From Mycolicibacterium porcinum (GTDB lineage: Bacteria; Actinomycetota; Actinomycetes; Mycobacteriales; Mycobacteriaceae): a stretch of DNA of 19,395 bases. Of the stretch, positions 7,006 through 12,230 are shown in pieces; positions within the stretch are counted from its first letter, which is position 1, and the number at the start of each line of letters is the position of its first letter. The stretch lies in the NCBI GenBank assembly GCA_001942045.1, contig MSTD01000009.1, positions 1-19,395 on the forward strand. The letters run 5' to 3'. The translations under genes and the position numbers were made by a program. Below the pieces are notes generated by a model that was given only the letters and a program-made list of their open reading frames with translations, had not been told where the DNA came from and ran no database searches.

Positions 7006-7014
7006 TGGCACAAT
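7006..7014 (+). promoter_or_regulatory. Possible -10 region for the M42-type peptidase gene
   Basis: TGGCACAAT occurs here in the 75-base divergent gap and is the same string found at the predicted rpsP and rplS promoters. A possible -35, TGACCA (6984-6989), gives a rather long 19-base spacer. The downstream TGTCTGC block seen at the ribosomal genes is absent, so this call is weak. Confidence 0.3.
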
Positions 7015-7065: not shown

Positions 7066-8301
7066 GTGGCCGAGACCGCCGCCATGCCGGAGGCCGAACG
7101 CAAGTGGATGATCGACACGCTGCTGGCATTGCTGCAGACCCCGAGTCCGTCGGGACGCACCGACGCCGTGATGCAGTTGATCGGCGATATTCTCAACGAT
7201 TTCGGTGTGCCGTTCACATTGACCCGGCGTGGTGCGTTGACCGCTGAACTCCCTGGTGAGTCGCCCACGATCGACCGAGCTTTGGTGGTGCACGCCGACA
7301 CCATCGGCTGCATGGTCCGGAATCTGAAGGACAACGGCCGCCTCGAACTGGTCCCGGTCGGCACCTTCTCCGCACGGTTCGCTGCGGGTGCGCGGGTGCG
7401 GATCTTCTCCGACGACCCCGACGAGTTCTTCACCGGCACGATCATGCCGCTCAAGGCCAGCGGCCATGCCTACGGCGACGAGATCGATACCCAGCCCACC
7501 GACTGGGACCACGTCGAAGTCCGGGTGGACCGAAATGTGTCGACGCGTGCGGATCTGGAACGGCTGGGTCTGAACGTGGGTGACTTCGTCGCGCTGATCG
7601 CCAGTCCCGAACTCACCCAAGACGGCTTCGTGGTGTCGCGGCACCTCGACGGAAAGGCCGGGGTGGCGGTCGCGCTGGCCCTGGCCAAGACCATCTCGGA
7701 GCAGAAGATCGTGCTGCCGCACCGCGCGATGCTCATGGTGACCATAACCGAGGAAGTGGGTCACGGCGCCAGTCACGGGCTTCCGCCCGATGTGGCCGAG
7801 TTGGTCTCGGTGGACAACGCGGTCTGCGCCCCGGGACAGCACTCGATCGAACACGGCGTGACGATCCCGATGGCCGACCTGCACGGCCCGTTCGACTATC
7901 ACCTGACCCGCAAGCTCTGCCGCCTGGCCGAGGGACAGGGCATCCCGTTCGCGCGGGACGTGTTCCGCTACTACCGGTCCGACGCGGCAGCCGCCATCGA
8001 GGCCGGCGCGGGCACCCGCGCGGCACTGCTGGGGTTCGGCCTCGACGGGAGCCACGGTTGGGAACGGACCCACCTGGATTCGTTGGAGGCGACCTATCTG
8101 TTGCTCAACGCTTGGCTGCAGACCCCGTTGACGTTCGAGGCATGGGATTCCAGCCCGACCGGTGCGCTGCGTGACTTCCCGTCCTCGAAGCAGCCGGCTC
8201 CCAGCGAGCAGTGGGTGCCGTTGTCCCGTGGCGACTTCACCGAGCCGGGAGACGCCTCACCGGGAACGCATTGGCCGCCGTCGGAGGGCCCCCAATCCTG
8301 A
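7066..8301 (+). CDS. M42-family metallopeptidase homologue (type named for the NAGGN osmoprotectant system)
   Basis: This is a two-metal aminopeptidase-like protein of 411 residues. All expected M42 ligands and the catalytic acid are visible: His76 (VVHADT), Asp195 (HLDGKAG), Glu229 and Glu230 (TITEEVGHG), Asp250 (SVDNAV) and His330 (GSHGWE). The interruption between residues 90 and 175 corresponds to the lid or dimerisation domain of the family. From memory this subtype is annotated as the M42 peptidase of the N-acetylglutaminylglutamine amide osmoprotectant system, but none of that system's biosynthetic genes is in the window, so its substrate is open. The last 60 or so residues are a Pro/Ser-rich extension. 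The GTG start has GAGGTGAG just upstream. No signal peptide; cytoplasmic. Confidence 0.85.
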   Translation: MAETAAMPEAERKWMIDTLLALLQTPSPSGRTDAVMQLIGDILNDFGVPFTLTRRGALTAELPGESPTIDRALVVHADTIGCMVRNLKDNGRLELVPVGTFSARFAAGARVRIFSDDPDEFFTGTIMPLKASGHAYGDEIDTQPTDWDHVEVRVDRNVSTRADLERLGLNVGDFVALIASPELTQDGFVVSRHLDGKAGVAVALALAKTISEQKIVLPHRAMLMVTITEEVGHGASHGLPPDVAELVSVDNAVCAPGQHSIEHGVTIPMADLHGPFDYHLTRKLCRLAEGQGIPFARDVFRYYRSDAAAAIEAGAGTRAALLGFGLDGSHGWERTHLDSLEATYLLLNAWLQTPLTFEAWDSSPTGALRDFPSSKQPAPSEQWVPLSRGDFTEPGDASPGTHWPPSEGPQS

Positions 8302-8824: not shown

Positions 8825-8854
8825 TTGGGCTGGTCGGCATCGTTCTGGCACAAT
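8825..8854 (+). promoter_or_regulatory. Predicted rpsP operon promoter
   Basis: TTGGGC (8825-8830) and CACAAT (8849-8854) are separated by 18 bases and fit a housekeeping sigma-70/SigA promoter loosely. The surrounding block TCTGGCACAATTG (8844-8856) recurs exactly upstream of rplS, and TGTCTGC (8862-8868) follows at about the position where transcription should begin. Confidence 0.55.
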
Positions 8855-8861
8855 TGGCGGC

Positions 8862-8983
8862 TGTCTGCCGCGCGACTCGTTCAATGCGCTGTGCGGCGGT
8901 CACACACGTAAGGCAAAACCGGATCGGGCAATTCCGCCCGCATCGCTGAATTGCAGCGTGACACTCAAGGAGAAGTCTTAACC
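8862..8983 (+). promoter_or_regulatory. Structured 5' leader of rpsP (candidate ribosomal-protein leader RNA)
   Basis: The predicted leader is about 120 bases long. Its 5' part can fold GCCGCGCG (8867-8874) against 8890-8897 with two G-U pairs. Two tandem small hairpins follow: CGGGC/GCCCG (8925-8929 with 8936-8940, loop 6) and CGCTG/CAGCG (8944-8948 with 8954-8958, loop 5), 3 bases apart. The strong ribosome-binding site AAGGAGAAG (8967-8975) comes next. The rplS leader has the same pair of hairpins with the same spacing. No known leader family is recognised, and I cannot confirm that it folds in vivo. Confidence 0.45.
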
Positions 8984-9469
8984 ATGGCTGTCAAGATCAA
9001 GCTCACCCGGCTTGGCAAGATCCGCAACCCCCAGTACCGCATCGCCGTCGCCGACGCGCGCACCCGCCGCGAAGGCCGCGCCATCGAGGTCATCGGCCGT
9101 TACCACCCCAAGGAAGAGCCGAGCCTGATCGAGATCGATTCGGAGCGCGCGCAGTACTGGCTGGGCGTCGGTGCCCAGCCCACCGAGCCGGTGCTGGCCC
9201 TGCTGAAGATCACCGGTGACTGGCAGAAGTTCAAGGGCCTGCCGGGCGCCGAGGGCACGCTGAAGGTCAAGGAGCCCAAGCCGTCCAAGCTGGAGCTGTT
9301 CAACGCGGCGCTGGCCGAGGCCGAGAGCGGCACCGGTGCCGCGGCCGTCACGCCGAAGAAGAAGAAGGCTCCCGCCAAAAAGGATCAGCAGGACGAGACC
9401 GCTTCGGTCACCACCGAGGCTGAGGCCCCGGCTGCCGAGGCCGCCGACGAAGCCGCAAGCGAGAGCTGA
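8984..9469 (+). CDS. rpsP: 30S ribosomal protein S16
   Basis: S16 binds 16S rRNA early in 30S assembly. The 161-residue protein opens with the family signature [19 protein letters not shown] and continues with [20 protein letters not shown]; the core ends near residue 110. The rest is an extension, first Lys-rich ([11 protein letters not shown]) and then Ala/Glu-rich, typical of mycobacterial S16. The ATG at 8984 was chosen over the upstream in-frame ATG at 8951 because AAGGAGAAG lies 8 bases ahead and the conserved sequence begins exactly there. It is the first gene of an operon with khpA, rimM and trmD, with gaps of 8, 10 and 12 bases. Confidence 0.97.
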
Positions 9470-12060: not shown

Positions 12061-12090
12061 TTCACGGTATGGGGACCCATCTGGCACAAT
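12061..12090 (+). promoter_or_regulatory. Predicted rplS promoter, matching that of rpsP
   Basis: TTCACG (12061-12066), an 18-base spacer and CACAAT (12085-12090) repeat the rpsP spacing. The 13-base block TCTGGCACAATTG (12080-12092) is identical to the one before rpsP, and TGTCTGC (12099-12105) follows 8 bases after the -10, against 7 at rpsP. Confidence 0.55.
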
Positions 12091-12098
12091 TGAGCAGT

Positions 12099-12230
12099 TG
12101 TCTGCGCAGGGCTGGGCCCGGCTTGGCCGCGTTCCGCTGCGAGATACACCCCGATACACCCGAAAATAGCTTCGGCTGCGCACCATGTGTGCGTTTGTCC
12201 GGAGCCGCGAACAACAAGGAAGTGTCACCG
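12099..12230 (+). promoter_or_regulatory. Structured 5' leader of rplS (candidate ribosomal-protein leader RNA)
   Basis: The leader is about 130 bases. Near its 5' end CGCAG (12105-12109) can pair with CTGCG (12137-12141), enclosing CGGC-TTG-GCCG. An AC-rich stretch follows with the repeat GATACACCC (12143-12151 and 12153-12161). Then come two tandem hairpins, CCGAA/TTCGG (12160-12164 with 12171-12175, loop 6) and CGCAC/GTGCG (12179-12183 with 12189-12193, loop 5), 3 bases apart. AAGGAAG (12216-12222) is the ribosome-binding site. The two-hairpin geometry equals that of the rpsP leader, with different stem sequences. Confidence 0.45.

Follow-up and report, generated by a model that had tools for sequence, protein, structure and literature searches.

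Comparison across related genomes indicates that the 5' leader of rpsP is a real structured RNA, in which one interrupted stem (P1/P2/P3) follows a start-proximal hairpin (P0). The fold is conserved and covarying, occurs in 97 of 101 genomes of the GTDB family examined and has a strict place before rpsP. We consider it probable that this leader is autoregulatory for bS16 in the genus studied and in nearly all of its sister genera, S16 being the ligand that we infer. The window, that is, the whole stretch of DNA analyzed here, comprises 19,395 nucleotides from Mycolicibacterium porcinum (contig MSTD01000009.1 of assembly GCA_001942045.1). Pfam searches identified rpsP, khpA, rimM, trmD and rplS in it, with khpA and rimM behind rpsP on the same strand and trmD also following rpsP. 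The product of rplS was recognized as Ribosomal_L19 and is 98–99% identical to L19 of Mycolicibacterium porcinum, M. peregrinum and Mycobacterium sp. DL99. A homologue of rpsP was found in all 131 genomes of the family. According to an excerpt of PMC10931766, no information is available about how the trmD operon is regulated. The sequences compared lie upstream of rpsP or rplS in 80 loci, nearly all of them mycobacterial, and in further genomes of the same GTDB family. Feature coordinates are collected in Table 1.

Table 1. Features of the rpsP and rplS leaders in the window (positions of the window; pairing strands in brackets)
Feature	Position	Strand	Remarks
rpsP promoter, -10 region TGGCACAAT	8846..8854	+	predicted start site near 8860-8862
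P0, start-proximal hairpin	8865..8899 (8865-8874 with 8890-8899)	+	single-sequence fold
rpsP-leader element (model R1), 68 nt	8897..8964	+	69.7 bits, E 2.1e-15
P1a, outer stem GUCAC/GUGAC	8899..8962 (8899-8903 with 8958-8962)	+	common to sister genera
P1b, outer stem CACGY/RCGUG	8905..8960 (8905-8909 with 8956-8960)	+	mycobacterial alternative
P2, GCAA/UUGC	8913..8954 (8913-8916 with 8951-8954)	+	
Asymmetric internal loop, AACCG (8917-8921) and GCUGAA (8945-8950)	8917..8950	+	candidate protein contact
P3	8922..8944 (8922-8924 with 8942-8944; C8941 bulged; 8925-8929 with 8936-8940)	+	
Hairpin 2, CGCUG/CAGCG	8944..8958	+	no covariation
Shine-Dalgarno AAGGAG of rpsP	8967..8972	+	4 nt past P1a; from sequence
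rpsP (bS16) CDS	8984..9469	+	Pfam Ribosomal_S16, E 1.3e-22
rplS leader	12082..12230	+	promoter word 12082-12090; no rpsP-type element

Mycobacterial rpsP leaders share a highly conserved block of about 65–68 nt, GTCACACACGYRAGGCAAAACCGG...CGCTGAATTGCAGCGTG (63 distinct cores), and the sister genera carry the same block with different stem sequences. The fold common to all consists of P1 (GGUCAC/GUGACC), P2 (GCAA/UUGC), the internal loop AACCG/GCUGAA and then P3, the apical part of which is the first of two small hairpins that a sequence-only reading of this DNA had described. Of the 63 mycobacterial cores, all have a complete P2, 45 a complete P1a and 60 a complete P1b; P1a and P1b are mutually exclusive, and across these cores P1b shows U-A for C-G in three cases and G-C for A-U in one. 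The match of covariance model R1 to the rpsP leader is the sole significant one in the window, nothing else scoring above 13.5 bits with filters off. We also observed an upstream ORF of 21 codons (ATG at 8884, TGA at 8947; 8884–8949) that overlaps the element; by eye, its ATG is shared by several close relatives but is not found throughout the mycobacteria.

The comparative support for this fold lies in its covariation. In 56 diverse leaders, chosen from 146 distinct cores (alignment A3), 87.3% of cells were paired against 77.1% in shuffled alignments, and 101 cells had changed on both sides against 39.1. The covariation score was 0.304 against 0.147 after shuffling, a value reached by none of 500 shuffles, and slid versions of the fold attained at most 0.078. 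Changes on both sides affected six of the eight pairs of P3 in this set (seven of eight in a second set) and, in wider sets, three of the five pairs of P2, for example GCGA/UCGC. P1 is 86.9% paired, mostly by conservation, with one of its six pairs changed on both sides. The second set, 43 leaders of which 35 lie outside the training set and eight are shared with it, gave 92.7% paired cells and a score of 0.380 against 0.148 (0 of 500 shuffles), in an alignment that was fitted to the model and leans towards the structure. Relatedness was allowed for with a tree built from 113 bases of rpsP coding DNA per row: 50 branches carried both-side changes in true pairs compared with 12.5 expected, and 38 of these changes led from one canonical pair to another, compared with 0–3 in six slid controls.

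Conservation of the unpaired loop has to be read with the alignment procedure in mind. The cores of alignments A1–A4 were cut at anchor words, taken from the internal loop and P2 or, in the case of rplS, being GAACC and TCCTCT, so that the invariance of these words there is partly by construction; the mycobacterial alignment A2 holds 63 distinct of 66 rpsP leaders. The cutting rule failed for nine of 166 leaders, seven of which were recovered by R1, while L232 and L236 (genus g8) scored at most 10.2 bits with filters off. Counted independently of any anchor, AACCGG is present in 154 of 158 distinct 140-nt rpsP upstream regions, and in the leaders outside the training set (model-fitted rows) AACCG is kept in 33–35 of 35 per position and GAA in 34–35. 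P0 was analyzed in 51 sister-genus rows (A5), in which 91.4% of cells were paired, a flattering percentage since 11 atypical-looking rows and duplicates had been left out of the 77 distinct non-mycobacterial regions; covariation was 0.312 against 0.132 shuffled (0 of 500), and two of five measures lay within the shuffles (88 and 71 of 500). In mycobacteria, P0 was seen by eye.

The sequence-only reading had taken the leader for two tandem mini-hairpins with a counterpart before rplS, and as a description of the letters it is accurate throughout. Before rpsP, CGGGC-AATTCC-GCCCG (8925–8940), the linker CAT and CGCTG-AATTG-CAGCG (8944–8958) end 25 bases ahead of the ATG at 8984. Before rplS, CCGAA-AATAGC-TTCGG (12160–12175), the linker CTG and CGCAC-CATGT-GTGCG (12179–12193) have the same 16-3-15 geometry, and the block TGTCTGC starts 63 and 61 bases upstream of the respective first hairpin (at 8862 and 12099). 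On its + strand the window holds two exact Watson-Crick tandems of this kind, whereas 100 dinucleotide shuffles contain 0.06 on average, and inside this window the geometry thus exceeds chance. Across species, however, it is not conserved: the exact geometry occurs in four of 65 distinct mycobacterial rpsP leaders and in one of 90 rplS leaders, which is the window itself (five of 65 and two of 90 with G-U pairs allowed). In 90 mycobacterial leaders the first rplS hairpin pairs no better than shuffled columns, at 66.2% against 66.1%, and the second slightly better, at 30.3% against 26.6% of cells, a level reached by three of 200 shuffles in a hairpin that is mostly unpaired. Given this rarity and this pairing, the rplS look-alikes are best read, from the comparison of sequences, as a coincidence of this strain.

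The second rpsP hairpin fares no better. In the 56 leaders it is 77.2% paired against 77.8% shuffled, with covariation of 0.145 against 0.156 and no double change on the tree, and its two halves pair elsewhere in the comparative fold. Folding of the window sequence by itself speaks for hairpin 2 (ensemble probability 0.72, against 0.14 for P2), whereas comparison speaks against it: mean probabilities for hairpin 2 and P2 are 0.00 and 0.66 in 40 sister-genus rows and 0.11 and 0.70 in 16 mycobacterial rows. The two arrangements have close energies in the window (-21.4 kcal/mol for P1b, P2 and P3; -22.1 kcal/mol for P1a, hairpin 2 and P3), and the region is not unusually stable in single-sequence folding (z -1.38). 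Hairpin 2 may at most form as an alternative within the clade of the window. We therefore rejected the tandem-hairpin model for its lack of covariation and double changes in hairpin 2 and for the rarity of its geometry. What survives of the sequence-only reading is an RNA element in the rpsP leader, conserved, of the ribosomal protein leader type and with no match in Rfam 15, but not one made of two tandem hairpins.

A single regulator common to rpsP and rplS that reads two tandem mini-hairpins, as had been suggested, would account for the matching geometry of both window leaders, for their common promoter word and for the single-sequence preference for hairpin 2. We nevertheless regard it as extremely improbable. 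Over 81 sources holding rplS, R1 gave 66 matches, all of them at the rpsP leader of sources that also hold rpsP and none in an rplS leader, and the rplS element of the sister genera is a different one (see below). A common two-hairpin element was rejected on these grounds, its stems not being conserved before both genes; it is refuted as a conserved feature, and a strain-specific function alone could rescue it.

The near-equal spacing from TGTCTGC is exact as described, and it is traced to a promoter word, TGGCA[CG]AAT, that both genes have in common and that sits just upstream of TGTCTGC. This word was found in 146 of 159 distinct rpsP upstream regions and 136 of 141 rplS upstream regions, with median distances to the start codon of 128 and 140 nt, respectively. 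In 789 kb (loci L001–L081) the + strand carries 143 copies and the - strand a single one, which is the rplS promoter of L081, a locus that is reversed, and no listed locus has more than two copies. In the fetched loci the word is thus almost confined to rpsP and rplS leaders; the window copies are those at 8846–8854 and 12082–12090, and a third lies at 7006–7014, about 50 bases before an ORF at 7066. The TGTCTGC block comes just downstream of this -10 element, and in the window it shares bases with the 5' strand of P0. The rpsP leader is presumably transcribed from the TGGCACAAT promoter; no mapped rpsP transcription start was found in the part of the literature open to our search. The case illustrates how equal hairpin geometry in two leaders can be a coincidence over a shared promoter.

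We then turned to the distribution of the element. Within the GTDB family of the window, R1 matched 97 of 101 genomes, covering 30 of 31 genera, with one strong match per genome; three of the 97, all of genus g3, scored 33–42 bits. Searches over 40 genomes use stricter filters, with which weak matches can be lost. Since 40 of the 56 training rows came from the genomes searched, roughly 50 or more of the 97 matches are not training rows. All but one of 98 matches lay on the strand of rpsP, 12–45 nt ahead of its first matched codon, the remaining one (G027:C12) being weak and located where predicted ORFs overlap. Outside the family, R1 gave one weak match in 130 genomes of the order and two in 192 genomes of the phylum, and the stretches surrounding these three matches (G242, G437 and G461) contain neither rpsP nor rplS.

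The four genomes of the family that R1 missed belong to two genera. Both genomes of genus g8 (G008 and G038) lack the rpsP element, with scores of at most 10.2 bits with filters off and no AACCGG in 140 nt, and the element is accordingly dispensable there. In genus g3, a divergent copy stands at the expected place in G088 (16.8 bits, filters off), and G034 has a weaker one (7.1 bits, filters off) with CAAAACCGG and CCAGUGAC, while other members score 20.6–41.6 bits. More copies of this type would probably emerge with a refined model. The g3 elements (L224, L235, L237, L238, L240, L292 and L293; 7.1–41.6 bits) diverge in having a longer P2 and other loops. R1 is a covariance model usable for annotation.

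Several properties of the element are those of ribosomal protein leaders: it lies in a 5' leader by the ribosome-binding site, its stems show compensatory changes and, apart from the weak G027 match, it is not found at other loci. According to the part of Eckert and Weinberg (2020; PMC7247131) available to us, in all known cases a gene under the leader's control encodes the ligand, a principle by which a single regulated ribosomal protein gene points to its own product as the ligand. With the search for an intrinsic terminator (a GC-rich hairpin and a T run) negative on the + strand between 8700 and 9100, translational control is favoured; in the window, 4 nt separate the 3' end of P1a from the Shine-Dalgarno sequence, which together with the missing terminator suggests ribosome occlusion as the simplest mode. 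Surplus S16, or S16 with a partner, would bind the internal loop and clamp P1/P2, so that the 30S subunit would be kept from the adjacent Shine-Dalgarno sequence. Such a block would lower the synthesis of S16 and, by coupling, that of KhpA, RimM and TrmD encoded downstream. Both S16 as the ligand and translational repression as the effect are suggested by this arrangement.

The same ligand principle, in the excerpted form cited above, also fits KhpA, a KH-domain protein encoded beside rpsP, and RimM, and it does not exclude either, since khpA and rimM stand behind rpsP on the same strand, with trmD following as well (Pfam). Binding by one of them would couple assembly factors to the supply of S16; as the leader stands directly before the one ribosomal protein gene of the group, we hold this to be quite unlikely. 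The fold might also work with no specific ligand, by protecting the 5' end, setting mRNA stability or shaping ribosome loading, and it is true that P0 begins within a few bases of the predicted transcription start and that structure extends over most of the leader as far as the Shine-Dalgarno sequence. Pure stability, however, does not require the near-invariance of the unpaired AACCG documented above, and the fold is not reused before other genes in the searched genomes, which makes a passive role unlikely. A metabolite riboswitch, or a member of some other known Rfam class, could likewise be compact and have a conserved loop close to the Shine-Dalgarno sequence, but no Rfam 15 family matched at its gathering score and the element accompanies one gene only, which encodes a ribosomal protein; we give this explanation hardly any credence.

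A more elaborate version of S16 sensing can be formulated for mycobacteria. The RNA would be family-wide, with a loop not copied from 16S rRNA, but bistable in mycobacteria, P1b/P2 forming one state and P1a with hairpin 2 the other, and S16 binding would flip the leader between them; the rplS leader would be separate and lineage-specific, with none in the window's genus. Taken as a whole, we find this combination doubtful. Mimicry of 16S rRNA by the rpsP element was considered and rejected, as it yielded weak matches only: the best R1 score on two rRNA loci (16S with flanks, filters off) was 12.5 bits, and an internal-loop motif scan of 16S rRNA remained at shuffle level on L265 and gave one looser match on L264. 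Such resemblance is not a required feature of ribosomal protein leaders.

With respect to known systems, no Rfam 15 family matched the window or 20 sister loci above its cut-off, and at E values up to 5 nothing came near a cut-off, the only two matches falling far below those of their families. Among the literature matches listed, which leave most subscription journals outside their scope, none described an rpsP or rplS leader in these bacteria in its title or first abstract lines. The closest counterpart, likened here by position and description, is the S16 leader that Eckert and Weinberg proposed from comparative genomics before rpsP, usually with rimM, in Flavobacteria (PMC7247131, in the extract available). 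It likewise lies upstream of rpsP with proposed S16 autoregulation, but in another phylum than the mycobacterial element, and among the listed rows of Table 1 in that paper the S16 leader is given for Flavobacteria only. A covarying rpsP leader found throughout the family thus adds an S16-leader candidate outside Flavobacteria. Within mycobacteria, the rpsO (uS15) leader is likewise a structured 5' UTR of a single ribosomal protein gene; as far as the accessible portions of the reports go, its autogenous translational control has been shown experimentally, unlike that of the rpsP leader, and it involves a pseudoknot and a different gene and ligand (Aseev et al., 2021, PMC8470358; PMC10931766).

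Leaders of rplS follow a different course. In the sister genera they carry an element of their own, modelled as R2, that combines GAGYA/URCUC, GAACC/GGUUC and a variable hairpin. In 39 of 44 distinct rplS cores (alignment A4; L107, L121, L123, L135 and L137 were left out, and L144 failed the cutting rule), 92.1% of cells were paired and nine of 16 pairs had changed on both sides (0 of 500 shuffles); counted without anchors, UCCUCU is present in 55 of 55 sister-genus rplS leaders. R2 matched 73 of 81 genomes of the family (28 of 31 genera), and a strong match lay 14–25 nt before rplS in all 50 genomes with a known rplS coordinate, a count that excludes a further 27 matches for want of such a coordinate. 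Five weak matches lie elsewhere than before rplS, and none of 15 loci with weak matches outside the family holds rplS. Like the rpsP element, R2 is a ribosomal protein leader by the start codon, in the same family and behind the same promoter word, but its sequence and fold differ. The L19 leader of Firmicutes, a leader of rplS contained in Rfam, concerns the same gene but matches neither the window nor the sister-genus rplS leaders. We observed R2 at L133:424-489 (-), L118:425-480 (-) and 37 further A4 loci, and it constitutes a candidate L19 leader that matched no family of Rfam 15.

The rplS leader of the window matched neither R1 nor R2, and R2 is absent from the window's genus (10 of 10 genomes), from genus g8 and from genus g18. 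In both the window's genus and g18 the rpsP element persists without R2, so the two elements are not the mark of a shared regulon; they evolve separately, and the single regulator of rpsP and rplS once envisaged is not supported. In mycobacterial rplS leaders (12099–12230 in the window), folds of subgroups point tentatively to two stems, one start-proximal and one, CGGC/GCCG, by the Shine-Dalgarno sequence, the latter with 62.9% pairing against 60.7% shuffled in 90 leaders (reached by three of 200 shuffles) and 11 double changes against 10.7. Genus g8 (L232 in G038 and L236 in G008) has neither the rpsP nor the rplS element and offers a natural case of their joint loss or replacement.
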